Source: Herpetosiphon geysericola (lineage in GTDB: Bacteria; Chloroflexota; Chloroflexia; Chloroflexales; Herpetosiphonaceae). From it: a stretch of DNA of 64,000 nucleotides. The stretch lies in assembly GCF_001306135.1 (NCBI RefSeq), contig NZ_LGKP01000018.1, positions 1-64,000 on the forward strand, read 5' to 3'. The position numbers and the translations under genes are program-made. Below, piece by piece: positions 17,966 through 36,333 of this stretch (positions within the stretch are counted from its first letter, which is position 1; each line of letters begins with the position of its first letter). Under the pieces are notes generated by a model. The model made no database searches, was not told where the DNA came from, and saw only the letters and a list, made by a program, of their open reading frames with translations.

Positions 17966-18015
17966 AAACGTCAACAGGGCCGTGATACATCCCTATCACA
18001 GGCCTGTTGACGTTT
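17966..18015 (-). terminator. Stem-loop at the end of the decayed operon copy
   Basis: AAACGTCAACAGG-GCCGTGAT (17966-17986) pairs with ATCAC-A-GGCCTGTTGACGTTT (17995-18015). It corresponds in position to the hairpin at 28708-28751 after the intact copy, but with a different sequence. The stop codon of the 17971-18525 ORF lies inside its arm. Confidence 0.65.
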
Positions 18016-18525
18016 ATAGAACGGCAGCATGGTTTGTTCCGCCTGTGGTATGGTGACCGTCGGCGGTTTGGTGATGGGCAGATGGCAGCGCGGACAGCGG
18101 TCGTGCCATTCGGCAAAGAGCGGATGGCTGTCGCGATGCTCACAGCGAGCCTGTGCCTCATGGAGGTGATAGGGGCGAAGGCGGGCAAACCAGAACTCAG
18201 CGGTATAGGCGCCTGCCTTGGGGATTTTTGCGCGCTGCTTGTCAAGGGTTGCCAACGTGGCCGGATCAACGACCTCCGCTACGAGGCTACGCAGCTCTAA
18301 TCCCTTGATTTCACGCAATTGATCGTTCGTTGCAACACGCGCCAGCATTGCGTCCTTCGACGCGATGATTGCTGCAAGATCCGTGGCTGCTTGCTGCTCC
18401 GTTACCAACCAATCCGCGAGTGCGCCGCCGGGTTGTAATTCGGCGGCAAAGAGTGGGTAGCGCTTGCGCAGGCGATTGTTTTTGCGCTTGACCCGTCGCT
18501 TTACCCGCTCGTCGAAGGTCAGCAT
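17971..18525 (-). CDS. Paralogue of the 28753-29262 protein (unknown family, Cys pair)
   Basis: 184 residues. The first 68 are nearly identical to the 28753-29262 product: a basic start (DERVKRRVKRKNNRLRKRYP), then AAELQPGGALADWLV and AAIIASKDAMLARVA. The middle diverges. The C-terminal third returns to near-identity, with a CEHR...WHDRCPRCHLP knuckle that could bind zinc. It is 15 residues longer because the stop after LPF is replaced by TAT and translation reads into the hairpin. AGGAGG precedes the start. It is part of a duplicated, decaying segment, and the upstream partner is a pseudogene. Confidence 0.65.
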   Translation of the reverse strand: MLTFDERVKRRVKRKNNRLRKRYPLFAAELQPGGALADWLVTEQQAATDLAAIIASKDAMLARVATNDQLREIKGLELRSLVAEVVDPATLATLDKQRAKIPKAGAYTAEFWFARLRPYHLHEAQARCEHRDSHPLFAEWHDRCPRCHLPITKPPTVTIPQAEQTMLPFYKRQQACDRDVSRPC

Positions 18526-19052
18526 GCGAGTGCCTCCTCTGAATCAAGCGCAATCAGCACAGCAGCCAAAACATGCTTACACAATTGCCCACCGCCATGA
18601 CTCCAGAATCCGCGACATTGGCAGGTAAAGCCCTCGGTATGGTCGATGCCATTGGCCAGCGTCACGGTGTAGGCTTTTGATCCCTGTACTGTAAATGTGG
18701 TCGCATCGCTGCGGGTCACCTGCTGGCTGAGGACAAGCACCACCGCATCATAGAGTTGGCGGCGCGAACAATCTCCGGCGATGAGCAGGGCTTGCTGCGC
18801 CCGAAAGCACCAACGGTCATCTGCCGTGGTGTTGCTCTAGAGCAAGCTCGCTAGCGGACTGCTGGGCGGAATCGGTTTGAGGGCCGTGGCGGTAATCGAG
18901 GTGTGTGCGCAGTGACTGGGCAGAATCTCATCACAGCGGACAAGGAGCAGCGCTGCCGAACGATGCATTGCTGGGGTGGGTGCCGCCATGGTGATGGCGG
19001 CAGTGGGTTAGCCAAAGTGGGTGAGGGTGGCGCGTTGGATGATGGTTTGCAT
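18519..19052 (-). pseudogene. SWIM-finger protein pseudogene (two nonsense codons)
   Basis: Same length (534 bp) and order as the intact gene at 29256-29789. From the ATG at 19052 it reads MQTIIQRATLTHFG and then hits TAA, where the intact copy has CAA. Further on, CTC-TAG-AGC replaces CTC-CAG-AGC near 18837-18842. Both are Gln-to-stop changes of the C-to-T type. The distal part (18519-18743) stays open and still holds CQCRGFWSHGGGQLCKH. A short truncated protein from internal codons is possible but unlikely. Confidence 0.85.
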
Positions 19053-19068
19053 GGTGATTCCTTTCTAC

Positions 19069-19130
19069 CCATGCCACGCAAGCCGTCGTTCGTGTATGTT
19101 GGTAGAGCTGCCTTTGCCGATGACGAGATG
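19069..19130 (-). pseudogene. radC 3' remnant
   Basis: Directly upstream of the SWIM pseudogene, the minus strand matches the last codons of the RadC gene at 29812-30420 (VIGKGS...ERRLAW in the same frame). The radC stop is displaced by a few codons. Similarity ends abruptly near 19130, where GATGCTGTCACT replaces GATGGTCAAGTAC. This marks the breakpoint of the duplicated segment. Confidence 0.75.
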
Positions 19131-19216: not shown

Positions 19217-22200
19217 CTATAATGATCCATGGTTATTTCCTTCATTCGGCATGCTAGATGTTGAGGCTCCTAACCATTCCAAACTGTTCCGTTGTGCCGC
19301 TGTTAATCCCGTGGTCGCCGTGATCGTTAATCCTGCATACGGTTGGTTGATCGCAAGCGTTTGGGCTTTAGTGCCTGTAGGGAGATGCCATACGCTGATT
19401 GTTGCATTACCGTTGCCACAGAAGAGGTATACCCCGTCGTGACTAAACCGTACACTGCGTACCCGTCCTACATGCCCGGATAAGCATTGCATCTGCTGTC
19501 CGGTTGTCGCATCCCACACATACACATTGGGACTCGAGCCACCCGTCGCAATCCATTGCCCATGGTGAGTCCAATCAACTGTCCAGACCTGACCTTCAGG
19601 ATTGGTGATGATCTGTTGGCATTCCTGCGTCGTAATATCCCAGATACGGATCGTGTGGTCATCACAGCCTGAGACGATGCGTTGCCCATCAGGGCTAAAT
19701 GTAATCGCCCAGATGGAGTTTGTATGTCCGGTTAGTATGGCAAGCGGCGTTGCTTGATCATGACGCCAAATACGAATGGTGTGATCGTCGCCGCCGCTTG
19801 CTAAGTAGCGGCCATCAGGACTCCACGCGAGTGACCAAACCCATCCATGATGACCACGATACGAGTGGGTTACATGACCCGTTGTTCGGTCCCAAATATA
19901 AAGAGTGTGATCTTCTCCACAGGCTGCGATGAATTGTCCATCGGGGCTAAAACTGATGGCGCGAACCCAGCCCCGAGCATCGGTGAGCCGCATGGTTGGT
20001 TGCTTGTCCTGAAGATGCCATAGGTGAATCGTCTGTTCTTTGGCGATTGCCAGCAGGTGCGCATGGGAGGTATAGGCAATCGCTTTACAATGCTGGGTTT
20101 CGTTGGATAACCCATACGCGCGTATCGGTTCTTCCCGAAGATTCCAGATGGTGACTGGTTGTTGTTCGCCACAACTCATAAGGTAGCCATCATCGGGACT
20201 GATGACTAAATTCCAAATGAGACCATCATGACCCTGAATCTGATGGCGCAAACGTCCACTGGTGGCCTCCCACACGCGCAGACTGCGATCACTACTGATA
20301 GAAATAAGATCATGGGTTGTATGGCTAAAGAGCAGACCCCGTACCCAGTGATGATGGGCGTTGATCGTATAGTGGGGATTGCCACTGGTCATATCCCACA
20401 GCCGAATGTGCCGATCAGCTCCTCCACTGGCAAGATATGCTCCATCTGAACTCAAGCACAGCGTTAATACCGCGTCGTGATGTCCCAGCAAGGTAGTTGT
20501 TAACCGCTGATGGACATAATCCCAGATATGAATCGTACAATCGCTCCCAGCACTGATTAAGATCGGTTCGTTTGGGCTAAAAACGAGTGACCAGACTGTC
20601 CCTTGATGACCATCCAGTGTTCCTTGGCGCTGGTAGTTTGTGCTATTCCAGAGGTGTATCCGATGATCTTTGCCTGCACTGGCAAGTGTTTGCCCATCAT
20701 GACTCAGGGCCACGCTACAAATCCAATCATCATGAGCGTGCACCCGCGCAATTAATCGGTTATCTTGCCAATCCCAGACGCGGAGATCGCCATCTTCCCC
20801 TCCACTGAACACGTACTGACCAGTCATATCGAAGGTAATACTGAGCACACGGCCAATATGATCGCTTAATGTCTGGATACACTGTCCGTCGGGAAGATTC
20901 CAAATCTTGATCGCGCCATCATCGCTCGCGCTGGCGAGGTGATGTCCGGTTGGACTAAATGCGAGGGCGCGAACCCAATCGTGATGCGCGGGAATCGACC
21001 AGCACAGCTTAAACTGGTGCGTATGCCAAATCAACAGCTCACCGTAGACACTTGCGCTTGCCAACAGGTTGCCATCGGGACTTTGTGCAAGCGCAATTAA
21101 TCCACCAAAACTTGGAATAAAATGCGTTTGTGACAGATCGCAGCCCGTTAAATCAAGGGTTGCAATCGCGCGATCCTGAAGATTAACCTGCCATATTGGT
21201 TTAAAGCGAAAATCAAACTGCTGCAGATCTGTTTGGAGTTCGAGACAGAGATTCAAAATATTGCCAGGGGCATAGCCCATTTCTGGCATGGGGCGTGGAT
21301 GAAAGGTTGCCAGCAATGCTTGGAGGGATCGGATTGTTTGGTCCCGCCCATCGATTAAGAGCAGGTGTTGGATCAGCGGTTGAATGATTGCTTGGCGTTG
21401 TTGTTCGCGAATGATTGTGATCGCGTCAGCCTTGAGCAGGGCATGCCGAATCAGGAGATGGGGGCGTTGGTGACGAATTTCCTGCACGAGTTGGTCAATC
21501 AAGCATACATTCAGATACTCTAAAATAACGCTATGTAAGCGAAAACCTGCGTTGTGCTGTTCAATCAACGAACGGCGTACCAGCGATTCAAGGGTCTCTA
21601 AAAGGACATGCTGCCATGGCGAGCGCACTAAGTTGGCCTTAAGCGTCGCAATGGTCGTGGGCTGGCGTTCGATGCTCAACCAATACATGACTTCTTGTTC
21701 ATGCTCCGATAAACGACTTAATTGTTGATGGAGTATCGTGCGAATATCACCGACCAACGGCTGTTGGTGGAGTAAAAACGCCGCAATATCCCCGGCACAT
21801 AACGCTTGAATACTTTGCGCCACTAACTTGAGCGTTAACGGATTGCCCGTGTACTGCGTGGTTAATTGCTGCCAACTGGGTTCATCTCCATGAAGGTGAT
21901 ACGGCTGAAGTAAGAGCTGGGTCTCATGCTCGGCAAGGCCAGTCAGCGTGAGGATACGGGTTGTGTCACTCTGGATGTGATTGAACCCGACTGGTTTTTC
22001 ACGACTGGTGATGATGATGCAGCTCTGATGCCGACGTTGACTGATCGCAGCGAGCAGCTCAGCATATTCACGATACTGCTGATGATATTGTCCAGCAGGG
22101 TAATCCGATCGCAGTAATGATTCGAAATTATCTAAAATCAGCAGGCAGCGATAGCGTGTGAGATACATGATGAAGCAATTCAGCCGTTGTTGAAAGTCGG

Positions 22201-22885
22201 TTGGATACGCATCTGGTGGATTTGGCTCAATCCGATAGAGGCAGTCTAAAAGATACTCATTGGCCGAGAGTGGGCGATTGAGGGAACGCCAGATAATGAC
22301 GGTGACGTCCGGTTTGAGCATCTGTGCCAGGGTAGTGATTAACGTTGTTTTGCCCATCCCCCCGAGTCCAAGTACCGCAATAACTCGACAGCGGTCGTGG
22401 GTCACCCAGGTGGTTAATTGGGTTAGTTCTGTGCTGCGGCCAACAAAATGCTGAATGTCCGGGGCTTCTCCCCAATCATAGACAGTATATGGTGCTGATT
22501 GTGCTGGTGATTGAATTCGGATGTTCGGTGGGGCTGGACGTTTCCCATAGTGAGATGCAAGATCCACCACCTCAGTCCATGTAGACAATGGTTTAAACCC
22601 AGAGTGTTGAAAAACGACGTTTAGTAACCTCAGGAGTTGTTGCTGTGCCTCGATCGGCTGATGGTTTGCAAGGTGTTCCCATATCAGCGTGGCCAAGGCG
22701 GCAATGTAGCTTGGTGGACAACGAATCTGATCCTGTTCATAGCGCATAATGGTGGTATGGGCAACACCAAAATACCGTGCTGCCTCTTTTTTTGAACGAA
22801 AGACCCATGATCGCAGATCACCCAGAAATGCACCGAGGCCATCATCGGGATCAAAGCTGGGAAGTGTAAGCGGTTGGTGGAACAT
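19217..22885 (-). CDS. HTH-NB-ARC-WD40 STAND regulator
   Basis: 1222 residues from the ATG at 22885 (MFHQPLTLPSF). N-terminal HTH: SKKEAARYFGVAHTTIMRYE (about residues 33-52). NB-ARC NTPase: Walker A VLGLGGMGKTTL (about 173-184), Walker B RCLLILDNFESLL (about 258-270) and the downstream GNPLTLKLVA motif. A linker leads to about 14 WD40 repeats (about residues 590-1215), seen as repeated GHxxxV-SPDG-LASGGxDxxIRIWD units. Such STAND proteins are held inactive by the propeller and switch on ligand binding; the HTH suggests transcription control. It is divergent from the secreted protein, with palindromes between them. It could also be a defence protein. Confidence 0.9.
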   Translation of the reverse strand: MFHQPLTLPSFDPDDGLGAFLGDLRSWVFRSKKEAARYFGVAHTTIMRYEQDQIRCPPSYIAALATLIWEHLANHQPIEAQQQLLRLLNVVFQHSGFKPLSTWTEVVDLASHYGKRPAPPNIRIQSPAQSAPYTVYDWGEAPDIQHFVGRSTELTQLTTWVTHDRCRVIAVLGLGGMGKTTLITTLAQMLKPDVTVIIWRSLNRPLSANEYLLDCLYRIEPNPPDAYPTDFQQRLNCFIMYLTRYRCLLILDNFESLLRSDYPAGQYHQQYREYAELLAAISQRRHQSCIIITSREKPVGFNHIQSDTTRILTLTGLAEHETQLLLQPYHLHGDEPSWQQLTTQYTGNPLTLKLVAQSIQALCAGDIAAFLLHQQPLVGDIRTILHQQLSRLSEHEQEVMYWLSIERQPTTIATLKANLVRSPWQHVLLETLESLVRRSLIEQHNAGFRLHSVILEYLNVCLIDQLVQEIRHQRPHLLIRHALLKADAITIIREQQRQAIIQPLIQHLLLIDGRDQTIRSLQALLATFHPRPMPEMGYAPGNILNLCLELQTDLQQFDFRFKPIWQVNLQDRAIATLDLTGCDLSQTHFIPSFGGLIALAQSPDGNLLASASVYGELLIWHTHQFKLCWSIPAHHDWVRALAFSPTGHHLASASDDGAIKIWNLPDGQCIQTLSDHIGRVLSITFDMTGQYVFSGGEDGDLRVWDWQDNRLIARVHAHDDWICSVALSHDGQTLASAGKDHRIHLWNSTNYQRQGTLDGHQGTVWSLVFSPNEPILISAGSDCTIHIWDYVHQRLTTTLLGHHDAVLTLCLSSDGAYLASGGADRHIRLWDMTSGNPHYTINAHHHWVRGLLFSHTTHDLISISSDRSLRVWEATSGRLRHQIQGHDGLIWNLVISPDDGYLMSCGEQQPVTIWNLREEPIRAYGLSNETQHCKAIAYTSHAHLLAIAKEQTIHLWHLQDKQPTMRLTDARGWVRAISFSPDGQFIAACGEDHTLYIWDRTTGHVTHSYRGHHGWVWSLAWSPDGRYLASGGDDHTIRIWRHDQATPLAILTGHTNSIWAITFSPDGQRIVSGCDDHTIRIWDITTQECQQIITNPEGQVWTVDWTHHGQWIATGGSSPNVYVWDATTGQQMQCLSGHVGRVRSVRFSHDGVYLFCGNGNATISVWHLPTGTKAQTLAINQPYAGLTITATTGLTAAQRNSLEWLGASTSSMPNEGNNHGSL

Positions 22886-22929
22886 CGCAACGCATCCAAT
22901 GCTACTAAATCGTCCAGATATCTGATCGA

Positions 22930-23010
22930 AAGGAGCTGTCAATCTTGCATAGACAGCTCCTTCTATAATACGCAATCTATTGCCAAAATGGTGCGCACAT
23001 CGTGCGCACC
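22930..23010. promoter_or_regulatory. Divergent control region with two palindromes
   Basis: AAGGAGCTGTC (22930-22940) and GACAGCTCCTT (22952-22962) are perfect inverted arms. TATAAT at 22964-22969 is a -10 candidate for the plus-strand gene. GGTGCGCAC (22990-22998) and GTGCGCACC (23002-23010) form a second perfect palindrome with a 3-nt centre. The GTGCGCAC core recurs in the RiPP control region at 26527-26534. Likely an operator zone for the STAND regulator or another factor. Confidence 0.6.
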
Positions 23011-25277: not shown

Positions 25278-26435
25278 TTAATCGCCTAGATTGCTCGCAA
25301 CAAGCTGTTCAAGGAAAGGAACAGCAGTGCTGATAGGGGGATACGCTTCCATTGTCGCTTGCAAGGCTTGAGCCTTTGCCCGATAGCATGGATTCTGGAT
25401 TAACTCCCTGAGGGTTTGCTGGATCACCAAAGGAGTTAACTGCTGGCTATCAAGGGCAATCCCAACCCCTAACTCAGCACACCGTTGGGCATGGTCAGGC
25501 TGATCTGCCCCAAGTGGAATAATGATTACGGGAAGTCCATGGCTCAGTGCCCCGACAAGACTACTAAACCCTCCATGACAGATCACTGCATCACAGTGCG
25601 GTAAGATCTGCCATTGGGGAAGATAGCGAACAATCGTGATATGTGCTGGTTGCACCCCGAAAACCATTGGATCGTGTTGTTGACCAATGCTCATAACAAG
25701 GTGATAGGGTTCAGTTTGAAAGGCGTGAAGAATCGTTTCAAAAATATGGAGGTTATAGCCATAAATGGTGCCAAGTGTGACATAGATAGTGGGTCGATCG
25801 GATGGAAGGATAATTCGTTCGGAGGTGGAGCGTGTTTCGCGGTAGAGCGTTGGGCGAAATCGCAATGTTGTGGGTGGTAAGGCCACATGGGGCAATTGAT
25901 AGGGTTCTGCAAAACAGGAAAGATGGGCATAACGATAGAGCAGTGCATACCCTTCAGCACATTCAAGATTAAATTGTTGACATAATTTTTGAACTGCCAA
26001 GCCTAATAACGATGGATCACGATTGGCATTAGCGAAAAAACTTACTTCAAATGAAACATGGGGAATAGTGCATGCCTCGGCGGCGATACATCCACTATAC
26101 TCAAAAGAATTGCGCACAATTAAATCAGGCTGCCATTGATACCCAATCGCTAATAGATCGGGCAACATTGCGCTTGCAAGTTGGCCTGCATACATATTCG
26201 CCAAGATCCATGCTCGTTGATCTACCTCATGAACTGGGGGATTTACGGGTGGAACAGCATGTAAGCTCGGATAGCCTGCCTGGAACCATTGAAAACCCGC
26301 ATGTTCAACGGCTTGTTGCAGATCGCCCCCTGTTGCGAATGCAACCTGATGGCCTGCATCCACACATGCTTGGGCTAGTGGTACGAGCGGATGAAAATGA
26401 CCAATCACGGGATGGGTGGTAAACAGTATTCGCAT
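25278..26435 (-). CDS. Glycosyltransferase, GT1/MGT type
   Basis: A GT-B enzyme of the UGT/macrolide glycosyltransferase kind, which moves a sugar from a nucleotide sugar to a small-molecule acceptor. The N-terminus ILFTTHPVIGHFHPLVPLAQ and the donor-site motif CHGGFSSLVGALSHGLPVII followed by PLGADQPDHAQRCAELGVGI are diagnostic. Length (385) is typical. AGAGGA lies about 8 nt before the ATG. It is divergent from the 27-residue peptide and P450 genes across a 178-bp region with operator-like repeats. I infer that it glycosylates the P450-modified peptide, but an unrelated acceptor is possible. Confidence 0.85.
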   Translation of the reverse strand: MRILFTTHPVIGHFHPLVPLAQACVDAGHQVAFATGGDLQQAVEHAGFQWFQAGYPSLHAVPPVNPPVHEVDQRAWILANMYAGQLASAMLPDLLAIGYQWQPDLIVRNSFEYSGCIAAEACTIPHVSFEVSFFANANRDPSLLGLAVQKLCQQFNLECAEGYALLYRYAHLSCFAEPYQLPHVALPPTTLRFRPTLYRETRSTSERIILPSDRPTIYVTLGTIYGYNLHIFETILHAFQTEPYHLVMSIGQQHDPMVFGVQPAHITIVRYLPQWQILPHCDAVICHGGFSSLVGALSHGLPVIIIPLGADQPDHAQRCAELGVGIALDSQQLTPLVIQQTLRELIQNPCYRAKAQALQATMEAYPPISTAVPFLEQLVASNLGD

Positions 26436-26545: not shown

Positions 26546-26613
26546 CCCCCATTAAAGTACGTATGTGGTTGATAACAACCGCATGGAACACTTTTATTAG
26601 GAGGAATGTCGTT

Positions 26614-26697
26614 ATGAAGAAGGTACTGCACAAAGTGGCAATTCGCTTAGGCTGGGTTAACCGTGTTGGCCCTGGTCCAGTGTATCGCTACTACTAA
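26614..26697 (+). CDS. RiPP precursor peptide, cittilin-like (27 residues, YRYY end)
   Basis: A 27-residue peptide with a strong AGGAGGA site 8 nt before its ATG. It begins MKKVLHKVAIRLGW, a basic amphipathic leader, and ends GPGPVYRYY. Cittilins of Myxococcus come from a 27-residue precursor whose last four residues, YIYY, are cross-linked by a P450 into a biaryl and aryl-ether bicycle. Length, aromatic spacing (Y-x-Y-Y), the Pro close to the core for prolyl endopeptidase cleavage and the adjacent P450 all match. The core here would be YRYY, possibly with the preceding Val. The link to cittilin is from memory of the published system, and the chemistry is inferred. Confidence 0.85.
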   Translation: MKKVLHKVAIRLGWVNRVGPGPVYRYY

Positions 26698-26712
26698 ACC
26701 GATGATGCCGTT

Positions 26713-26736
26713 GCTGGGCTATGCTTATAGCCCAGC
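26713..26736 (+). terminator. Stem-loop between precursor and P450 genes
   Basis: GCTGGGCTAT (26713-26722) and ATAGCCCAGC (26727-26736) form a perfect 10-bp stem with a GCTT loop; T26712/A26737 extends it by one pair. It lies 15 nt after the precursor stop. A partial terminator here would give more precursor than enzyme mRNA, as is common in RiPP operons. The following T-tract is short. Confidence 0.7.
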
Positions 26737-26760
26737 AGCCTTGTTGAAAATGTGTGTGCT

Positions 26761-28098
26761 ATGCCTTTTTCTATCCTGACGACTAATCAACCGCCTGGCT
26801 TGACGGGTGACTATGCTGACATTCTCATGCGCTTTAGCCATGATCCGCTGTCGTTTTTAACGACAGCCGCTCAAACCTATGGCGATATTGTCCAGATTGG
26901 ACCAAATCAATATTTGCTTGTTCATCCACGTGATATTGAAACTGTTTTCGTCCAGACCAATACACGCTTTGCCAAACTAGCGCTTGATTCCAAGGGACGG
27001 CTCGAACAATCTGCCTTTCCTTGGGCAACCATGAATACCGAGGGGCCTGTTTGGCTCCAAAAACGTCGCCATATCCAGCCTTTTTTTCAGCGTCAGCATG
27101 TGTTTCGCATGCTCCACACGATGCATAACGATATTCTTATGATGCTGGACACATGGTCAACCAATCAGCCAACGAATTTGCAGCATTGCTTAATGGAGCT
27201 TTCCTTAACCCTGATTTGTCGCTTTTTGTTTCATCGAACGGTGCCAGAGGCAGCGCAACGAATCCATACCGCCGTTGATGCGATTATGCAGATTACCCGT
27301 AGTCCGATTCGGATTCCTAGCTTTATTCCAACCCCTGCCAATCGACGGTTACGAAAGTCCATGCGACAGCTTGATCAATTAATTTATGAGATCATTGCCA
27401 CTCCTTCTGATGATGCTTCCGTCGAATCAATCCTCACCCTGTTGCAAAATCAACCATCGACTGCGCTTCATGATGAATGGGGGGAAACCTTTATTCGTGA
27501 TGAATTAGCGACCCTCTTGTTATCGGGCCATGAAACGATGGCGAATGCAATTGCTTGGGCCTGCGTCTTGATTGCCAACCATCCTGAAGTGGAGCAACGC
27601 ATTGTTGATGACGTTGCGTTAATAACCCATCATGGATGTTTGCAGCTTGACCAGTTTGGGGAATTGAAATATACCACGGCTGTGGTCAATGAAGCCCTGC
27701 GGTTATATCCGCCTGCATGGATTACCAGTCGTCGCGCGTTAGTTCCATGTCAGTTTGGAGATTATTCCTTTAAAGAGCAAACATCATTTACGATCAGCCC
27801 ATGGGTAACCCAACGTGATGAACGTTTTTTTGTTGAACCCACCGTGTTTAATCCGCAACGCTGGCTTGGAGATGATGCACGGTCAAGCCCGCGCTATGCA
27901 TTTATTCCCTTTGGAGCTGGCCCGCGTGTCTGTATTGGTGAAGATTTGGCACGCTTAGAAATGCTGTTAACGATAGCATTAGTGGTATCACGCTATCATA
28001 TTGAGGTCTTGCCAACGAGTGATTGCACACCGTTTCCTGCATTGGCATTACGACCAACCACGCTCAACGTGATATTTCGTCCACGAAAAAGCGATTAA
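26761..28098 (+). CDS. Cytochrome P450, probable peptide cross-linking enzyme
   Basis: 446 residues from the ATG at 26761 (MPFSILTTNQPPG); a GTG at 26752 is in frame but less likely. P450 signatures: I-helix LLSGHETMANAIAW (about residues 252-265), ExxR in NEALRLYPPAW (about 309-319) and the haem loop FIPFGAGPRVCIGEDLARLE (about 381-400) with the Cys ligand. The usual oxygen-activating A/G-G-x-E/D-T reads SGHET. The gene lies 63 nt after the precursor peptide on the same strand. By analogy with CitB it would form the Tyr-Tyr carbon-carbon and carbon-oxygen cross-links. Electron-transfer partners are not encoded nearby. Confidence 0.92.
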   Translation: MPFSILTTNQPPGLTGDYADILMRFSHDPLSFLTTAAQTYGDIVQIGPNQYLLVHPRDIETVFVQTNTRFAKLALDSKGRLEQSAFPWATMNTEGPVWLQKRRHIQPFFQRQHVFRMLHTMHNDILMMLDTWSTNQPTNLQHCLMELSLTLICRFLFHRTVPEAAQRIHTAVDAIMQITRSPIRIPSFIPTPANRRLRKSMRQLDQLIYEIIATPSDDASVESILTLLQNQPSTALHDEWGETFIRDELATLLLSGHETMANAIAWACVLIANHPEVEQRIVDDVALITHHGCLQLDQFGELKYTTAVVNEALRLYPPAWITSRRALVPCQFGDYSFKEQTSFTISPWVTQRDERFFVEPTVFNPQRWLGDDARSSPRYAFIPFGAGPRVCIGEDLARLEMLLTIALVVSRYHIEVLPTSDCTPFPALALRPTTLNVIFRPRKSD

Positions 28099-28118: not shown

Positions 28119-28673
28119 ATGGAGTTTATGATGCGGAATCATTGGAAAATAATCATTGGGGTGCTCCTGTTTGCTTGCTCTGGAGTTATGCTTTTTTTGG
28201 TATGGCAACGCAATCAAGCAAAACAACCGATACCGTTACCCGTTGTAGCCCAATCAACTATCGTTGAAGGTGCTGGCTATAGTCTCTATCGCTGGGAAGC
28301 AGGACTTCAACTTGTGGTGCTGTATGATGGAGCCTATACAACCAATGCTTGTACGATTGGATCGGTTGATACCGTGTCATCGACCGTCTATGGATGTAGG
28401 ATTCCATTTCACAATGGAACGATTACCACATGGTCTGTTCAGACCACTGATGGCAAAACTGGTATACTCAGTGTTGATGGCAGAACCTATCAACTGCCGC
28501 GCGAGGCAGGAGTTATTCGGGTACAGGCTGATGGAGGAGAAAATCGGATAACGGCTTTTCAACGAAACTTGCCGATGTTTCAGCATGATACGGCTGATCG
28601 TCAATTGTACCAGTGGCTAGTGCAAGATCCCGAGCTTTCGGTATTTGCTACACAGTTTGGGCTAGGAAACTAA
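28119..28673 (+). CDS. Membrane-anchored protein of the RiPP locus
   Basis: 184 residues from the ATG at 28119. GGAG at 28121-28124 would instead favour the ATG at 28131 (MRNHWKIIIGV). One N-terminal transmembrane helix, IIIGVLLFACSGVMLFLVW, precedes an extracytoplasmic domain of about 145 residues rich in beta-type sequence (YSLYRWEAGLQLVVLYDGAY, TTDGKTGILSVDGRTYQLP) with two Cys that could pair. The start lies 20 nt after the P450 stop, so the genes are probably cotranscribed. Family not recognised. Immunity or a receptor for the product are possible guesses. Confidence 0.7.
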   Translation: MEFMMRNHWKIIIGVLLFACSGVMLFLVWQRNQAKQPIPLPVVAQSTIVEGAGYSLYRWEAGLQLVVLYDGAYTTNACTIGSVDTVSSTVYGCRIPFHNGTITTWSVQTTDGKTGILSVDGRTYQLPREAGVIRVQADGGENRITAFQRNLPMFQHDTADRQLYQWLVQDPELSVFATQFGLGN

Positions 28674-28707
28674 AGTACTCACACTGGATACGGTATATCA
28701 AAAACAA

Positions 28708-28751
28708 CGCCAAGCGGCCCGTGATCAATCTCGATCACGGGCCGCTTGGTG
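28708..28751 (-). terminator. Strong stem-loop ending the long minus-strand operon
   Basis: CAAGCGGCCCGTGATC (28711-28726) pairs perfectly with GATCACGGGCCGCTTG (28733-28748), with further pairs outward. On the minus strand it directly follows the stop of the 28753-29262 gene. The plus-strand RiPP operon ends at 28673, so it probably serves both directions. Confidence 0.75.
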
Positions 28752-28752
28752 T

Positions 28753-29262
28753 TTAGAACGGCAGCATGGTTTGTTCCGCCTGCGGTATGGTAACCGTCGG
28801 CGGTTTGGTGAGGGGCAGATGGCAACGCGGACAGCGGTCGTGCCATTCGGCAAACTCGCCATGGTTTTTGCGGTGCTCACAGCGAGCCTGTGCCGCATGG
28901 AGACAATGCTCACGAAGTCGAGCAAACCAGAACGAGTGCGTATAGACCCCTGCGATCGGTATTTTTGCTCGTCGGGTATCAAGGGTTCCGATCGTGACCG
29001 CATCGACCACCGCTGCTGTGAGACTGCGGAGGATTAATCCACGTGCTTCGCAGCGGGCATCATGGGCGGCTACGCGCGCCAGCATTGCGTCCTTCGACGC
29101 GATGATTGCTGCAAGATCCGTGGCTGCTTGCTGCTCCGTTACCAGCCAATCCGCGAGTGCGCCGCCCGGTTGTAATTCGGCGGCAAAGAGTGGGTAGCGC
29201 TTGCGCAGGCGATTGTTTTTGCGCTTGACCCGTCGTCGGACACGCTCGTCGAAGGTCAGCAT
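28753..29262 (-). CDS. Unknown protein with CEHR/CPRC knuckle, last gene of operon
   Basis: 169 residues. The start is highly basic (DERVRRRVKRKNNRLRKRYP). The middle is helical, and CEHRKNHGEFAEWHDRCPRC near the C-terminus gives a CxH...CxxC zinc-knuckle pattern. The C-terminal TVTIPQAEQTMLPF is shared with the paralogue at 17971-18525. The ATG overlaps the end of the SWIM gene, and AGGAGG lies within that gene. Family not recognised; the coupling suggests it acts with the SWIM protein, perhaps on nucleic acid. Confidence 0.7.
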   Translation of the reverse strand: MLTFDERVRRRVKRKNNRLRKRYPLFAAELQPGGALADWLVTEQQAATDLAAIIASKDAMLARVAAHDARCEARGLILRSLTAAVVDAVTIGTLDTRRAKIPIAGVYTHSFWFARLREHCLHAAQARCEHRKNHGEFAEWHDRCPRCHLPLTKPPTVTIPQAEQTMLPF

Positions 29263-29789
29263 GCGAGTGCCTCCTCTGAATCAAGCGCAATCAGCGCGGC
29301 AGCCAAGACATGCTTGCAGAGTTGCCCGCCTCCATGGCTCCAAAAGCCTTTGCATTGGCAGGTAAAGCCCTCGATATGATCAATGCCATTGGCCAGTGTC
29401 ACGGTGTAGGCTTTTGACCCCTGCACCGTGAACGTGGTCGCATCGCTACGGGTCACTTGCTGGCTAAGGACGAGCACGACCGCATCATAGAGTTGGCGGC
29501 GCGAACAATCCCCGGCAATTAACAGGGCTTGCTGCACCCGAAAACACCAGCGGTCATCCGCCGTGGTTTTGCTCTGGAGCAACGTGGCCAAGGGGCTGCT
29601 CGGCGGAATCGGTTTGAGGGCCGTGGCCGTGATCGAGGTGGGTGCGCAGGAACTGGGCACAATCTCGTCACAGCGGGCAAGGAGCAGTGCTGCCGAGGTA
29701 TGCAGCGCTGGAATGGGTGCGGCCATGGTGATCGCCGCAGCGAGTTGGCCGAAGTGGGTGCGCATGGCGGTTTGGATGACGGTCTGCAT
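29256..29789 (-). CDS. SWIM zinc-finger protein
   Basis: 177 residues from the ATG at 29789 (MQTVIQTAMRTHFGQ), with GAAAGGAA upstream; the frame stays open further upstream by chance. The SWIM motif is CQCKGFWSHGGGQLCKH (CxC...CxH) near residues 149-165. Before it lies the usual YTVTL-x-GIDH-EGFTCQC strand pair. SWIM fingers bind DNA or protein and often accompany helicases and recombination proteins. Here it sits between RadC and the zinc-knuckle protein. A decayed copy lies at 18519-19052. Confidence 0.8.
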   Translation of the reverse strand: MQTVIQTAMRTHFGQLAAAITMAAPIPALHTSAALLLARCDEIVPSSCAPTSITATALKPIPPSSPLATLLQSKTTADDRWCFRVQQALLIAGDCSRRQLYDAVVLVLSQQVTRSDATTFTVQGSKAYTVTLANGIDHIEGFTCQCKGFWSHGGGQLCKHVLAAALIALDSEEALAC

Positions 29790-29811
29790 GGGTCGATTCC
29801 TTTCTGATTCA

Positions 29812-30420
29812 TTACCACGCAAGTCGTCGCTCGCGCATGCTGGTATAGCTGCCTTTGCCGATGATGAGATGGTCAAGTACATCGATCTCCAAGAGCTGGC
29901 CTGCCTGAATGACCTGCTTGGTGAGCAGGATGTCCTCTGGCGAAGCCCACACCATCCCCGAAGGGTGGTTGTGCGCGAGGATGATCGAGGCGGCATTGCG
30001 GCGCAGCGGTTCGCGAAACAGGTCGGCGATGCGGCAATGGGCGGTATTGAGGGTTCCGACCACAACGGTATGCATGCTGATGACGTGCGCTCGCGTTGAA
30101 AGGCTGATCACCCGCAGTTCTTCCTGCGGTAAGTGACTCATCTCGGCTTGGAGCAAGGCCACCACATCCATCGGACTGGTGATCGGCTCGCCCATGACGG
30201 CTTCCGCGAGTTTGGCGTGGCTGATCGCGAAGGCGGTGCGGAGTCGGATGGCATGAGCACGGCCAACGAGTGGGATCAACTCCTCCTCGGTCATCCGATA
30301 GAGGGTATTCCACGACTGGTCGGCGGCCTGCCAGAGGTCGGCAGCACACATCTGATCGCGGGCGGTTGGGCGGGTCGGATTGAACAGGTCAATCAAGGTA
30401 GGAATGGCATCAATCGCCAT
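29812..30420 (-). CDS. radC: RadC-like JAB/MPN-domain protein
   Basis: 202 residues. The JAMM metal-binding motif is SIILAHNHPSG (about residues 142-152) followed by ASPEDILLTKQV. RVISLSTRAHVI and VVVGTLNTAHCR are also typical of RadC, and the N-terminal third is the usual helical part (LVGRAHAIRLRTAFAISHAK). RadC proteins are common on plasmids and integrative elements, and their biochemical role is unsettled. AAGGAGTC lies before the ATG. The SWIM gene follows after 22 bp. Confidence 0.9.
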   Translation of the reverse strand: MAIDAIPTLIDLFNPTRPTARDQMCAADLWQAADQSWNTLYRMTEEELIPLVGRAHAIRLRTAFAISHAKLAEAVMGEPITSPMDVVALLQAEMSHLPQEELRVISLSTRAHVISMHTVVVGTLNTAHCRIADLFREPLRRNAASIILAHNHPSGMVWASPEDILLTKQVIQAGQLLEIDVLDHLIIGKGSYTSMRERRLAW

Positions 30421-30439
30421 GGGTAGACTCCTTCACCGC

Positions 30440-30466
30440 TGGGGAGCAGCGGTGCGCTACTCCCCA
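30440..30466 (-). promoter_or_regulatory. Nested hairpin upstream of radC
   Basis: Outer arms TGGGGAG (30440-30446) and CTCCCCA (30460-30466) enclose an inner stem AGCG/CGCT (30448-30451, 30455-30458). It is one of the spacer hairpins in this operon, about 20 nt before the radC ATG. Confidence 0.6.
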
Positions 30467-30491
30467 AACGGGGAAGAAGAATCAGGATTGG

Positions 30492-30716
30492 TTAGCGCTG
30501 TAACCAGCGCATGATCATGCCAAGACCGTCATAGACATAGTTGCCAATCACATCGGAGATGATCGGGGCCACAAGGATCTTGACGGCGACGAGGCTGGTG
30601 ATCATGCGCAGGGTCTGGATGCGCTGCTGGTTTTGCCGTCGTCGCGCGCGATCGCTTCGGCGGTTGGGCCAGTGCTGGCTACGGCTGCGGCGACGGTGGC
30701 GGGTATGGTGCTTCAT
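30492..30716 (-). CDS. Small basic protein with one membrane helix
   Basis: 74 residues. The first 35 are extremely basic (HHTRHRRRSRSQHWPNRRSD). A hydrophobic stretch, MITSLVAVKILVAPIISDVI, could span the membrane, and the end is amphipathic (GLGMIMRWLQR). It is collinear with the operon between the helicase and RadC. No family recognised. The ribosome-binding site (GGTGACC) is weak, so confidence is moderate. Confidence 0.5.
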   Translation of the reverse strand: MKHHTRHRRRSRSQHWPNRRSDRARRRQNQQRIQTLRMITSLVAVKILVAPIISDVIGNYVYDGLGMIMRWLQR

Positions 30717-30840
30717 CGGTCACCTGCCCGTAGGGTAGGGTGGTTCGTCATGGTGACGGCTCCCGTGCCATTCCGCCACGACGCGGAACAGCACACAGGG
30801 TGGTGTCCCGAATCGTCGTGGGGGCAGGACTAACGGATGC
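30717..30840 (-). promoter_or_regulatory. Structured spacer between helicase and small membrane gene
   Basis: On the minus strand, TTCCGC-GTCGTG-GCGGAA forms a perfect 6-bp hairpin. GTGC/GCAC and CCC/GGG pairs outside it extend the stem with interruptions. The spacer is 124 nt, the longest in the operon interior apart from the 5' leader. Confidence 0.5.
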
Positions 30841-33162
30841 TTACAGCACCATGGCGAACTGGTGGGCAACCTGCGTTGCTTTGCGGGTCGGGACATCGAC
30901 GACCGTGAACAAGTCGGCCCAACGGATGGGCTGCTCGGCAGGCTCGTCGATGGTTGACGGGGTTGCGGTCGCAGGAAACACCAGACTGGGGCGCTCGGCC
31001 TCCGCCTTGATGGCCTGTCCGACGTTGCGGAATTGATCACGGAGGGCATTCGCATCGTCCATGGGGTTAGCAGAGCGTAATTGCTTGGCCAACTCTTGGA
31101 GGAGACTCATGCCCGGATCAAATTCCAGCAAGCCGCCCTCGCTGTCGTCACCACTTAACATGGTTGCGGCAGCGGCTTTGCGGCCCACAATCCCTAAGGC
31201 GCGCTGACTCATGGTCTTGGTGTACCCAAGAAAGGTCACCTCGCAGCCCTGGGTTTGGGTGGGTCGAAAGGCACGACGCTTGGCCTGAAAGAGATCGTAG
31301 AGGCTGTAGAGCGGCTCGACGACCACAATGCTGGGCCATGCGATCAGATTGAGTCCGGTTTTGACTAGGCGTGGATTACAAATGACGACATTCGTTCCCT
31401 GCGCCACCTGTTCGGTAAACCACGCGTTGCGTTCGCCCGGAGCCACGGTCGTGGCACGGAGGATCGCAATCTTGAGCGTGGTTTGGTGCTGCTCGTGGGC
31501 AAGGGCAGTGACTTTTTCCGCCAGATCGACGGCAATGTCATCGTTGCCTGTATGCTCGGCAAACAGCAACACGCGTCGGCCTTGCTGGATCTGCGCAGCG
31601 CAATACTGGGCCAACCACGTATGGTGGGGCAAAATGCGTTCGGCAGGCAGTTCGGGCGTGGTCACCTTCTCATTCACTAGCTGTGAGCTGATGGTTTTGC
31701 GTCGCCATGGCTGATAGGGCCATGACAAGGTGGCTTGGAGGTAGGTGGACAGGGCATCGTAGCCGCCGTTGCCAATGATGGCTTTGCCGTCGTCCTCGAT
31801 GCGCCGATACTGCGGCTGCATGTCGGTGGGCAGATCGAGCAGCACGACATCCTCACGGTAGTCGGGCAACTGAAAGCCCATATCCTTCAAGAGCACCGTA
31901 TAGGTGCAGTTTTGGACGATGGTGATCAGGTCGGCGGTAATGCCTGCCCGTTCTTGTACCTCGGTGCTGGTGCGGGTTTGGCCATCGTAATGGCCAGCGG
32001 TTGCCGCGCGCGTAATTTCCTTGGTCATGACATCGACGACTCCGACATCGCGCACAAAGGCGCTGCGATTGTTCCAGCCCCAGCGATCCCGAATCACGGT
32101 ATTGCCAAGGCGGAGCAAGAGGTCGTAGAGCGTCGAGGCCATGCCGCCATAGGCAGTTCCGGTCATGCCAACCGTCGTGCGGCTGGCGGCGACCATCGCG
32201 CCAAAGGCTTGGCCGAGCGCGGTGCGTGCCCCTTTGCATTCATGCACTTCGTCATGGACGTAGAGATCGACGCGTTGGGGATAGCGGCGCTGGATGAAGG
32301 AGGCTAAGGCCATCCGAGGATTCGAGCGCGGACGCTGGCCCCACGGAATAGCGCGGCGACCGTTGGCATCGACGGCGTAGGTTTGCCAGTCATCGGACTG
32401 AAAGATCGGCAGGCTGCGATCCTGGACATTGTCACGCTCCCGGCACTGTTGGCCGAGGTGCTCGTGACAATGGGGACAGGTCACGGTGGCGAGGCCGCGT
32501 TGCTTGAGCTGTTTGGCATCGAGCACGGCCCCATCAGCTTTGCGTTGCAGCCAGCCACAGCGGGGGCAGGCAAGGCCACCCATACGCAGTAGCGGGATCG
32601 CGCGCCGAATGGGGCGATCCGTCGTGGTTGCATCGGCGGCAATGCTGCCTTCGGTGCTGGTTTTGGCTTTTTTGGCCAGTGCGATGCGGGTATCGGATTC
32701 ATGGGTGGCACTGCCCCACCGGGCATCGACCCAATCATCGCGGCGCATGAGCATGCCTTCAATCGTGGCCACCGAGCCAAAACGGGCATAGCGCTGTTGC
32801 ATGGCTTCCGGCAGGGACTGCCAGTAGTGGTGCAGGCGCTGGGCCGTGTGGTCGTAGTCGCGATCCTCCGCGCCAAGCACATAGCCCGACTCCAATTTGA
32901 GTTTGGAGTTCGAGATAAAGCCGACGCGCGGCAGGTCGGGATGGATTTCGGCTGCGCGCATAAAGCGACTGACATCACTGGGGGATTCCAGAATGTCCAT
33001 CGCCCAGCTGTCGCCTAAGAGTTGATCCCATTCCGCCCACCATGGTGGCAATTCGCCGGTGCCATGGGTGTAATAGGCCGCGACTTGGTCGGACGTGCCG
33101 ACGAGGTGAATCGGGCCAGCAACGATGGTGGTAAAAGCGGGTTTGGTGGTTGATGTGGTCAT
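30841..33162 (-). CDS. SF2/SNF2-like helicase lacking its own Walker A
   Basis: 773 residues from the ATG at 33162 (MTTSTTKPAFTTIVAGP), with AGGAG 9 nt upstream. Motif Ia-like TTIVAGPIHLV stands at the very N-terminus. A zinc ribbon CPRCGW...CPHCHEHLGQQC lies near residues 213-253. Motif II is YVHDEVHE (about 310), motif III is GMTGTAYGG, motif V is NPRLVKTGLNLI and motif VI is LFQAKRRAFRPTQT. No Walker A is present; it lies at the end of the upstream methyltransferase gene (AEMGSGKST). The two products presumably form one ATPase in trans. The methyltransferase/helicase pairing recalls phage DarB-like and plasmid anti-restriction proteins. Confidence 0.8.
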   Translation of the reverse strand: MTTSTTKPAFTTIVAGPIHLVGTSDQVAAYYTHGTGELPPWWAEWDQLLGDSWAMDILESPSDVSRFMRAAEIHPDLPRVGFISNSKLKLESGYVLGAEDRDYDHTAQRLHHYWQSLPEAMQQRYARFGSVATIEGMLMRRDDWVDARWGSATHESDTRIALAKKAKTSTEGSIAADATTTDRPIRRAIPLLRMGGLACPRCGWLQRKADGAVLDAKQLKQRGLATVTCPHCHEHLGQQCRERDNVQDRSLPIFQSDDWQTYAVDANGRRAIPWGQRPRSNPRMALASFIQRRYPQRVDLYVHDEVHECKGARTALGQAFGAMVAASRTTVGMTGTAYGGMASTLYDLLLRLGNTVIRDRWGWNNRSAFVRDVGVVDVMTKEITRAATAGHYDGQTRTSTEVQERAGITADLITIVQNCTYTVLLKDMGFQLPDYREDVVLLDLPTDMQPQYRRIEDDGKAIIGNGGYDALSTYLQATLSWPYQPWRRKTISSQLVNEKVTTPELPAERILPHHTWLAQYCAAQIQQGRRVLLFAEHTGNDDIAVDLAEKVTALAHEQHQTTLKIAILRATTVAPGERNAWFTEQVAQGTNVVICNPRLVKTGLNLIAWPSIVVVEPLYSLYDLFQAKRRAFRPTQTQGCEVTFLGYTKTMSQRALGIVGRKAAAATMLSGDDSEGGLLEFDPGMSLLQELAKQLRSANPMDDANALRDQFRNVGQAIKAEAERPSLVFPATATPSTIDEPAEQPIRWADLFTVVDVPTRKATQVAHQFAMVL

Positions 33163-33209
33163 CGCAGGGACTCCTGAACTAGCGAGAACGCCCTGCGCAG
33201 ACCATCCCC

Positions 33210-33241
33210 CACGGGATGGCCGCATGCGTGCGGTTCCCGTG
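33210..33241 (-). promoter_or_regulatory. Nested hairpin in the spacer that splits the helicase
   Basis: CACGGG (33210-33215) pairs with CCCGTG (33236-33241) around an inner CCGCA/TGCGG stem (33220-33224, 33229-33233). An alternative CCATCCC/GGGATGG hairpin shares bases with it, so two exclusive folds are possible. It lies in the 93-nt gap between the methyltransferase stop and the helicase ATG. Confidence 0.6.
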
Positions 33242-33255
33242 GCAGAATCATCAAT

Positions 33256-34671
33256 TTATTTGGTTAAGGATTGTTGGTGAAACCAGTGGGCAATCGCAAT
33301 GCCCATGGTGGACTTGCCACTTCCCATTTCGGCATTGAGCAGCGTGCCTTTCGGAAGCGTGCGCGTGCGCGGGTCGGGAGTGGTCAAGTAGCGGGTAATT
33401 CCGGCTACGACATGCTTTTGCATCGGCAGCAGGCCATTCTCGTAGCCCGGCAACGTGCGGCCATCCTTGCGTTTGAGCATGGCCAGCGTCGCGGCGGTCT
33501 GATCATCCATATCATAGGCATAGATGGGTGGGGCGACGGCGGTGATGGCGGCGAGCAATGCCTCAGCGGTGGCCGGATCAGCAAGAAGCTTCTGTAATCC
33601 GGCATCGCCTTCATAGCGGCACACACTGCCATCGGCCACATCGACCGTCATGACCACTGGCACCTGTCGCGTGACATGGTGGGTAATCAGGGTGGTCGTA
33701 TCGCCTTCTTCCTTGGTTTCGACCCAGACCGTTTGGTCTTCGCTGGTCGAGCCTTTGATGATCTGGGGCCGACCGTTAATGATGATGGTCGCGCCGTTAA
33801 TTTCCCCGGTCGCAATCCGTGCCGCCGCAGCGGTGGCGGACAGCGGGCCGAGGGGGCGCAGATGGGCGATGCGCAGGGCATCAATCGCACTCCGATAGGC
33901 GCGGGTATTGGTGGCTCCACCGGTTACCACCACATCGGTGGTGGCTTGGTCGGGTGTGCCAATCGTGGCATCCTCCCACACGATGGTGGAGTTAGTGGCC
34001 ACGGGAATGGTGTAGCGTGGCGCGGCTTGCATGGTTAATTCCGGCAAGGGCTGCGCGAGCTGGGTGGTGAGAGTGGTGATCAGGTCGCTCAGGGCTTGGC
34101 CACTGCGGGCACGGGCGCGCCGAACGCCGATCACGATGGCTTCCCGCCAGCGCCGCAGGGCGGCAGGCAGGGCCATGATGGTGAGGTTGTCATAATGGCG
34201 AGCGAGATGCTGGGTGACCGCAGGCTTGGCAAACACATCTTGGGGAGTCACGAGGATCGCGATCCCACCTGGCTGAAGCCAATTGCCTTCTTCAATCACG
34301 CGGCGAAAGAACTGGAGTTCACTCCGTTCGTCGCCAGCGGCTTGGGTGCCGAAGGGGGGATTGAGATAGACCAGTTGCAAGCCATGGTGGTTGGCGCGCA
34401 GCCAGCGCACGGTGTCACAACTGGTGGTGTTTGACGTCATCCCTCGGCAGGCCGCAGCCCGCTCCGTATGGAGTTCGTTGAGATAGAGCTGATCCGCTGG
34501 AATGCCCCATGCACGGGCCAACTGCCACGCAGCTGCGCCTTCGCCCGCACACGGATCAGCGATCCGACAGGCGGCAGGGTTGGCAGCGGTAACATAGGTG
34601 GCGAGCAGGGCAACGGCAGCGGGATCGAGCGCTTGAAAGCCATGATTGGCGGTATTGGCAAGACGGGCCAT
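33256..34671 (-). CDS. DNA methyltransferase with C-terminal helicase Walker A segment
   Basis: 471 residues. I use the ATG at 34671 (MARLANTANHG) because CAAGGAG lies just upstream; 34695 is an in-frame alternative. Class I methyltransferase motifs: DPCAGEGAAAWQLA (AdoMet binding, about residues 38-51) and catalytic VYLNPPFGTQ (about 100-109), an N6-adenine type arrangement. The organisation resembles DUF6094-like proteins of mobile elements. The last 55 residues are a helicase start: LLPMQKHVVAGITRYL (Q-motif-like) and GTLLNAEMGSGKSTMGIAIA (Walker A), ending just after it. So the helicase ATP-binding site is split over two genes. Confidence 0.82.
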   Translation of the reverse strand: MARLANTANHGFQALDPAAVALLATYVTAANPAACRIADPCAGEGAAAWQLARAWGIPADQLYLNELHTERAAACRGMTSNTTSCDTVRWLRANHHGLQLVYLNPPFGTQAAGDERSELQFFRRVIEEGNWLQPGGIAILVTPQDVFAKPAVTQHLARHYDNLTIMALPAALRRWREAIVIGVRRARARSGQALSDLITTLTTQLAQPLPELTMQAAPRYTIPVATNSTIVWEDATIGTPDQATTDVVVTGGATNTRAYRSAIDALRIAHLRPLGPLSATAAAARIATGEINGATIIINGRPQIIKGSTSEDQTVWVETKEEGDTTTLITHHVTRQVPVVMTVDVADGSVCRYEGDAGLQKLLADPATAEALLAAITAVAPPIYAYDMDDQTAATLAMLKRKDGRTLPGYENGLLPMQKHVVAGITRYLTTPDPRTRTLPKGTLLNAEMGSGKSTMGIAIAHWFHQQSLTK

Positions 34672-34709
34672 AACAACTCCTTGGATAGAAGGCATGACCC
34701 GACGACCCG

Positions 34710-34732
34710 TGGGGCCGCAGATGCATGCCCCA
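34710..34732 (-). promoter_or_regulatory. Hairpin upstream of the methyltransferase gene
   Basis: TGGGGC (34710-34715) pairs with GCCCCA (34727-34732) with an 11-nt loop. It lies about 40 nt before the ATG in a 74-nt spacer of the hairpin-punctuated operon. Confidence 0.55.
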
Positions 34733-34745
34733 GAGGGATGAAGAA

Positions 34746-35915
34746 TTAATGAGCGGCCTTTTCTGGGGCAGCACTCTTTTTGCCGATGGTCGTGATGGCC
34801 ACGCCAGCGGTCGAGACAGGCGATTTCGTGACAATGGCGCGGATGATCCGTGCCCAGCGCTCAATCGCCGATGTTTTGAGCCAATAGCTCCGACAGCCCC
34901 ATGAAGGGAGCGGAACAATCAGGCCGTGGGTCAGCCCCAACTGCCAGAGATCATCCAGCCAATGCGACTGGAGTGGCAGCGGGCAGGCCCGTTCAAGTTG
35001 CGCCCACAGAATCGCATGATTGGGAATCCCGTCCATGCCCGTGAGGTGCAGACAATCCTCGCCCGCGTGCGGGGTTAAGACCGAACGGTGGAGGATGGTG
35101 GTGGTGGCCAGTCGCGAGGACGGCAACGGCATTTCATTGCGCAGCGTGCGGTACTGTTGCGTCCCACTGGCTTTCTGGGCGAGTTGTTTCCCGACTTGGT
35201 AGTAGGGCATGGGTTCGCCGAGGGCCATGGTGGGGACGAGCGGCTGCTGCGGGAGGGTGATGGCGTGGCGCGACCCATCAAGGATCGAGGCCCACGCGGC
35301 AGCACATTTGGCGCTACTGCCAACAACGGTCAACGCCCCAATGGTGGGGATGTCGCTGCCCGTTGGCAAGAGATTCGGGGGAAGAACACACCACGCAACC
35401 ACGGGCACGGTTTCCTTGGAGGGAAGATCGAGCATGCGGTGGTGGAGGGTGTGCGGGCGACCCCGAAACGGATTGGTGGCGGCGAGTGTCCTCGTCACAT
35501 GGTCGTCAGCAACAACCCATGGGGCATCGGGACACGCGAGGCCGTGGAGCATGATCGCGGTCAGGATCTGGTCATGCGCGGTTGGTTCCGTGCTGAACAG
35601 GCCCGACCGTGATCGTTGGTGCATGGTGATCAGGGCCTGCTTCATCGCATCGGCGCTGAGCGTTTGGGTGATGGAATTGTCTTCATTGCGGTGGCTGGTG
35701 ATCGCGGCCTGCATGGCCTCGACCACCGGAAGCATGCCCACAAACACTGCTTGACTCATCAGGTGATGCGGGCTATGCGTAGATGTGGCAGCTGCGACGG
35801 CGGTGATGAATGGATCATCCCATTCCTCCTCAGAAAGCAGGGGGAATCGACGCAGGCGGGTGAAGGCGTGCCAGAAGCGGGCGGCTTCGGGCAGGAGGGC
35901 AAACAGGGACGACAT
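34746..35915 (-). CDS. Unknown operon protein (389 residues)
   Basis: The start at 35915 (MSSLFALLPEAARFW) has AAAGGATG about 9 nt upstream. The protein reads as an ordinary soluble alpha/beta protein with no signal peptide. Recognisable stretches are HLMSQAVFVGMLPVVEAMQA, DAPWVVADDHVTRTLAATNP and GIPNHAILWAQLERACPLPL. A Lys/Ala-rich tail ends it. I do not recognise a family. It lies between the 95-residue protein and the methyltransferase, so a role in DNA processing or protection of the element is an inference from neighbours only. Confidence 0.7.
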   Translation of the reverse strand: MSSLFALLPEAARFWHAFTRLRRFPLLSEEEWDDPFITAVAAATSTHSPHHLMSQAVFVGMLPVVEAMQAAITSHRNEDNSITQTLSADAMKQALITMHQRSRSGLFSTEPTAHDQILTAIMLHGLACPDAPWVVADDHVTRTLAATNPFRGRPHTLHHRMLDLPSKETVPVVAWCVLPPNLLPTGSDIPTIGALTVVGSSAKCAAAWASILDGSRHAITLPQQPLVPTMALGEPMPYYQVGKQLAQKASGTQQYRTLRNEMPLPSSRLATTTILHRSVLTPHAGEDCLHLTGMDGIPNHAILWAQLERACPLPLQSHWLDDLWQLGLTHGLIVPLPSWGCRSYWLKTSAIERWARIIRAIVTKSPVSTAGVAITTIGKKSAAPEKAAH

Positions 35916-35955
35916 GGTGACATCCTTTCGGATCACGAGGCCGTCCCCACGAGGA

Positions 35956-35982
35956 GCGGGCGCATCGTGATGATACGCCCGC
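35956..35982 (-). promoter_or_regulatory. Hairpin upstream of the 389-residue gene
   Basis: GCGGGCG (35956-35962) pairs with CGCCCGC (35976-35982). Outside it, the GTCCCC and GGGGG runs can extend the fold. The spacer is 86 nt, with the ribosome-binding site after the stem. Confidence 0.55.
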
Positions 35983-36001
35983 AGGGGGCAACAGAACAGA
36001 T

Positions 36002-36289
36002 TTAGGCAGCGGGTGCTTCGTCAGCGTCGCTGCTGGTGTTGGTGGCTGGCTCGTCGGCTTCTTGGGGCATAACGCCTTTCGTGAGTCGATCATAGACCAG
36101 CTGGTTTAAGCGCGTTTCGCCGTCGAAATAGCTTGGGCTGGAGCCGACGTATGCGCCGTCCAGGTACAAGCTGAAATCGCCCGTTGTGCGATCATAATTG
36201 ATGGTTTTCCCCACCGGATTGATCACGGGCATGAATGGGACAACGGGTTTGCGCGTGGTTTTTTTGGTGCGTTGTTTGGTCGCGGCCAT
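36002..36289 (-). CDS. Small unknown operon protein (95 residues)
   Basis: The start at 36289 (MAATKQRTKKTTRKP) is preceded by GGAGGAC at about 8 nt; the frame extends further upstream by chance. The basic N-terminus is followed by VINPVGKTINYDRTTGDFSL and YLDGAYVGSSPSYFDGETRL, then LNQLVYDRLTKG and an acidic tail. The middle may be a small beta domain. Not recognised. Similar small basic proteins occur among plasmid transfer and single-strand DNA genes, but I cannot support that here. Confidence 0.65.
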   Translation of the reverse strand: MAATKQRTKKTTRKPVVPFMPVINPVGKTINYDRTTGDFSLYLDGAYVGSSPSYFDGETRLNQLVYDRLTKGVMPQEADEPATNTSSDADEAPAA

Positions 36290-36333
36290 GATGATGTCCT
36301 CCGTATGAGCGGTGGAAACTCCATGGCCACCCG

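Follow-up and report, generated by a model that had tools for sequence, protein, structure and literature searches.

The gene pair at positions 26614-28098 of the window, the whole 64,000-nucleotide stretch analysed from contig NZ_LGKP01000018.1 of Herpetosiphon geysericola, is very probably a real, divergent cittilin-type RiPP locus, judged from its sequence. Cittilin derives from a 27-residue precursor that is modified by the P450 CitB (PMC8708641). The window carries a short open reading frame of the same length, preceded by a strong ribosome-binding site and followed by a P450 gene, as an earlier sequence-only reading of this DNA had described. The main proposal of that reading, that a precursor and P450 of the cittilin kind exist outside the phylum of the known ones, holds: the P450 groups with CitB, and CitA can be aligned gaplessly with the peptide.

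The precursor gene and the P450

The CitA-like precursor gene (26614..26697, forward strand) comprises 27 codons from ATG to TAA and encodes MKKVLHKVAIRLGWVNRVGPGPVYRYY (27 residues). The ribosome-binding site, read from the sequence as AGGAGG, lies 9 bases 5' of the ATG (26599..26604, forward strand), and 63 bp separate the precursor from the intact P450 gene downstream. The predicted leader spans residues 1-23 and the predicted core, YRYY, residues 24-27, with the arginine in place of isoleucine that had already been pointed out. The comparison with CitA that the sequence-only reading had called for gives a gapless alignment over all 27 residues, eight of them identical (M1, K2, K3, L5, A9, Y24, Y26 and Y27). 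The likeness of the leader to CitA exceeds that of all 5000 of 5000 shuffles when gaps are allowed, and only 87 of 20000 shuffles are not exceeded when they are not.

The DNA pattern GPGPxYxYY-stop has a single match in the window, whereas 100 shuffles gave none, and it is no chance match. The same pattern has no match in genome_contigs (own genome excluded) or in viral_contigs, and a peptide search across 60 relatives returned nothing above chance-level matches. CitA does not share the GPGP stretch. CitA is not retrieved by a sequence search with the window peptide alone, and therefore the position of the open reading frame and the identity of the P450 carry much of the argument.

The P450 gene (26761..28098, forward strand) encodes a 445-residue protein which is assigned as a divergent CitB from its 41% identity to Myxococcus CitB, its place in the tree and the rare residues described below. 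It contains the ExxR motif (E311-R314) and the heme motif FGAGPRVCIG, and matches the Pfam p450 model with an E-value of 1.5e-63. The mechanical start is a GTG at 26752; the ATG at 26761 is the likelier one, since the Myxococcus relatives also begin with MP. A strong stem-loop with a 13-bp stem (26710..26739, forward strand), overlooked in the sequence-only reading, is placed between the precursor and the P450, with a fold z-score of -3.6 against 200 dinucleotide shuffles. Most CitA loci, as well as those of the sister clade described below, have predicted stems at about the same position; no such stem is predicted in one sister locus (L162), and in a further relative (L150) the stem is not the minimum-energy fold. 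These stems may favour the precursor over the enzyme.

Relatives in myxobacteria

The P450 alignment was scanned against about 85,000 genomes. Among the matches listed, the best relatives are the P450s of a Myxococcus species (record NZ_VIFM01000064, locus L065) and of M. vastator (locus L066), both at 41% identity with E-values of about 1e-102, followed by P450s at 33-36% identity with E-values of 1e-80 or worse. Directly 5' of the two Myxococcus P450s lies a 27-residue peptide, MKKALYSLAVLMR[I/F]ARADKLSAPYIYY, and 3' of both a SAM methyltransferase. With a 27-residue precursor, a P450 and a methyltransferase, these loci correspond to the published cittilin architecture; the names CitA and CitB are given here by that architecture, in named Myxococcus genomes. 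The single-protein scan of viral_contigs found no relative of the P450, the alignment scans of the same collection found only P450s at 22-30% identity, and a plasmid search with the P450 gave no close match (best 32%).

Among 145 genomes of the myxobacterial order, ten P450s score at least 735 bits with the P450 profile and the next scores 444. All ten loci contain a CitA open reading frame, with the core YIYY in nine and YHYY in one, and all ten contain the methyltransferase CitC. In the locus with the natural core variant YHYY (L155, genome G162), the core is preceded by SVP. A search in 195 genomes of the myxobacterial phylum gave no additional CitB-type locus among the matches listed. Of 400 sampled Chloroflexota genomes the window's own is the only one to score, with 840 bits, a value inflated by inclusion of the window P450 in the profile; the next value is 428, and the locus is lacking from the other genomes. 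Short open reading frames with a ribosome-binding site were screened upstream of every P450 compared, and a recurrent precursor appears only at the window, at the CitB loci and in one further clade. The CitA-type peptide is found at none of the 154 other P450s compared, and neither a CitA-type nor a sister-type open reading frame is found at the P450s scoring just below the CitB type.

The sequence-only reading had also proposed placing the P450 in a tree with CitB. In a tree of 42 P450s the two group together (support 96/87) and jointly join a sister myxobacterial clade (100/99), but the branch of the window P450 is long, and its placement outside CitB and the sister clade (p 0.11) or with the sister clade alone (p 0.12) is not rejected by AU tests. 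The grouping is thus recovered, whereas its exact branching is left with alternatives. The pattern of identities counts against the CitB assignment, since CitB is 48% identical to a non-CitB P450 (L100), above its 41% to the window P450.

A comparison of shared residues with the 154 other P450s does not depend on branch lengths. Nine residues (P87, A89, M91, N92, K101, F155, P232, S255 and A429) are common to the window P450 and CitB and occur in none of the 154 others; some are also present in the sister clade. At three of these positions 152 of the 154 carry glycine (87 and 89) or alanine (255). Several of the nine presumably fall in regions of the substrate pocket (the B'-C region and the I-helix). 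Rare positions in common with CitB number 15 for the window P450, 12-13 for the sister P450s and seven at most for any other P450.

The sister clade has a precursor of its own. In three myxobacterial genomes (L159, L160 and L162) the P450 is preceded, at a distance of no more than about 100 bp, by a conserved 32-residue open reading frame that has a strong ribosome-binding site and encodes MKA[FL]FY[IV]AVALGLSNPKKLTR[QP]YQAITPGGGY. The L162 peptide shares KL[ST]xPY with CitA and [VI]A[IV]xLG[WL]xN with the window peptide. These pairs resemble the window in their related P450 clade (100/99), about 35% identical to the window P450, in the short precursor directly 5' with a similar leader, and in that no CitC was found nearby; they differ in the length of the precursor and in its ending, YQAITPGGGY. 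They probably encode a P450 RiPP that is so far undescribed and has a core of ten residues; we know of no description of such a pair of 32-residue precursor and P450.

Plasmid setting and neighbouring genes

The contig that contains the window is 75 kb long, and the locus is part of the cargo of a pHAU01-like plasmid, a setting that, like the direct repeats flanking the cargo, the sequence-only reading had missed. Positions 28623-39285 are 84-88% identical to the H. aurantiacus plasmid pHAU01. The cargo segment around the locus (about 10 kb, 47-50% GC) is placed between direct repeats. The left repeat (17967..19130) is 1.17 kb of plasmid-core DNA, 84% identical to the right one (28706..29871), which is continuous with the pHAU01-like core and shares its 84-88% identity to pHAU01. 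The repeats contain plasmid-core genes, a SWIM zinc finger gene and its neighbour. The same cargo encodes, at 19217-22975, a 1252-residue protein whose N-terminal region is NTPase-like and which contains many WD40 repeats. Defence-type genes occupy 43319-53451 and encode a SAVED domain protein, two tyrosine recombinases, a STAND NTPase with a restriction-endonuclease-like domain and an MmeI-type methyltransferase.

The search for precursor-P450 pairs in other Herpetosiphon genomes, which the sequence-only reading had suggested, found the pair in none of five congeners. Such an absence from related genomes was one of the outcomes named by that reading as speaking against its proposal, and within the genus it applies; the cittilin assignment survives it, as the pair is conserved in myxobacteria. 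Cittilin-type loci have, to our knowledge, previously been described from myxobacteria only, and a literature search covering few subscription papers found no paper linking Herpetosiphon or Chloroflexota with cittilin-like RiPPs.

Two flanking genes had been pointed out as present instead of a methyltransferase, and a role in the pathway is not supported for either. The gene for a GT1/MGT-type glycosyltransferase (25278..26435, reverse strand; NCBIfam MGT E-value 6e-49, below the cut-off) is transcribed divergently from the precursor. Its closest match in congeners is at 39% identity, with no orthologue among them, and no counterpart was found at the cit loci. Nothing ties the enzyme to the peptide, and it is at most a candidate member of the pathway. 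The gene for a membrane-anchored protein of 181 residues (about 28128..28673, forward strand) is separated from the P450 stop codon by about 30 bp and belongs to a multicopy family found only in Herpetosiphon. Paralogues (L235 6471-7022 and L236 3050-4963) occur as single or as three tandem copies, the latter in a congener on a contig of 99 kb, and are flanked by conjugation-type ATPase genes, one VirB4-like and the other coupling-protein-like. The protein is therefore probably a plasmid passenger, a bystander of the locus, and members of its family are possibly surface or entry-exclusion proteins of plasmids. Given these plasmid paralogues, a role as a pathway enzyme is unlikely.

Predicted product and known systems

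By analogy with cittilin, once the precursor is expressed the P450 would couple the side chains of the three core tyrosines oxidatively, presumably through a C-C biaryl bond and a C-O-C aryl ether bond (together -4 H), so that Tyr-Arg-Tyr-Tyr becomes bicyclic. The leader would then be removed by a protease whose gene lies elsewhere, which would free the cationic bicycle. Since CitC is missing, no methyl group should be added. Cittilin maturation reportedly uses an unlinked prolyl endopeptidase, according to a 2020 paper on cittilin. The stretch before the window core is GPGPV, with proline at -2 and valine at -1, in contrast to the xxP of all CitA peptides, with proline at -1, and no S9A prolyl oligopeptidase (PF02897) was found in the genome. 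Cleavage thus probably differs from that of cittilin and may leave VYRYY. The calculated [M+H]+ values are 660.278 for YRYY-4H and 759.346 for VYRYY-4H.

The pair may be a genuine RiPP locus and still yield something other than the cittilin bicycle, such as a single crosslink (e.g., Tyr24-Tyr26), a different type of bond or one to a different position. The crosslink type of the aminopyruvatide P450 ApyO shifts with the residues of the substrate (PMC13192836), the sister clade with its ten-residue core must yield a different product, and the basic residue at -5 of the CitA and sister peptides is a glycine in the window peptide, where an arginine stands at -7. The conservation of all three core tyrosines with CitA and the pocket-region residues shared with CitB weigh in the opposite direction and make this outcome rather unlikely. 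Glycosylation of the product by the divergent GT1 enzyme, instead of methylation by CitC, is somewhat less likely still. The glycosyltransferase gene is only 178 bp from the precursor, in the same intergenic region, and lacks an orthologue in congeners; on the other hand, it is encoded on the opposite strand within a cargo of mixed genes, none of the cit loci contains a counterpart, and GT1 enzymes often use other small molecules as substrates.

A chance arrangement, in which the short open reading frame is no precursor and the P450 an ordinary small-molecule oxidase, would agree with the absence of the pair from the five congeners and with the preference of most P450s of comparable size for small molecules. 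Such an arrangement is nevertheless highly improbable, given a 27-residue MKK...YxYY frame with a strong ribosome-binding site exactly at the CitA position, a P450 whose best listed relatives are CitB, and no such frame at any of the 154 other P450 loci. The cittilin-type assignment is preferred. A wider proposal, to which we give a little less than even weight, is that CitB-like P450s form a broader class of precursor-P450 RiPPs in both Myxococcota and Chloroflexota, whose cores range from YxYY (x being Ile, His or Arg) to the ten-residue YQAITPGGGY, and that the Herpetosiphon product is a cationic bicyclic YRYY or VYRYY with a role unlike that of cittilin.

With a plasmid-borne member in Chloroflexota, a cittilin-type pathway would reach a second phylum and accept arginine in the ring-forming motif. 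A CitB enzyme at 41% identity is now at hand for structure-function work, in which the residues around 87-101 and S255 may distinguish peptide crosslinking from small-molecule oxidation. With its ten-residue core, the sister family opens the core range of CitB-like P450s to direct testing.

Compared with known systems, the window shares with the biarylitides (bytA-bytO) a minimal precursor-P450 RiPP locus and, by prediction, aromatic crosslinks. Biarylitides, however, have a five-residue precursor and a tripeptide product (PMC8708641), and the 27-residue precursor sets the window apart from them. ApyO acts, as is predicted for the window P450, on a ribosomal peptide, in which it crosslinks Y-x-Y close to the C-terminus, but its precursor has 66 residues and ends in YLYD, and its cluster includes an MNIO and other enzymes. 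The window P450 reaches an E-value of 5e-43 and 147 bits with the ApyO model (NCBIfam NF050147), far below the curated cut-off of 525 bits, and filing it under ApyO is rejected by this score. A second P450 of the same genome (contig C20, L238 5957-7369) scores 290 bits with this model, also below the cut-off, and is adjoined by a metalloprotease-like open reading frame and two membrane proteins.

The closest known system is the cittilin locus (citA-citB-citC) of Myxococcus. The sequence-only reading was right that no methyltransferase is adjacent: CitC, which is needed for cittilin A, is lacking from the window (tblastn E > 1), and a homologue at 37% identity is located on another contig of the same genome. 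The window locus is plasmid-borne in Chloroflexota, whereas the cittilin locus belongs to Myxococcota. Its core is YRYY and that of cittilin YIYY, although the YHYY of one myxobacterial locus indicates that isoleucine is not strictly required there. Both loci have a 27-residue precursor that starts with MKK and ends with Y-x-Y-Y, a stem-loop separating it from the P450 and, directly downstream, P450s with 41% identity and rare pocket-region residues in common.
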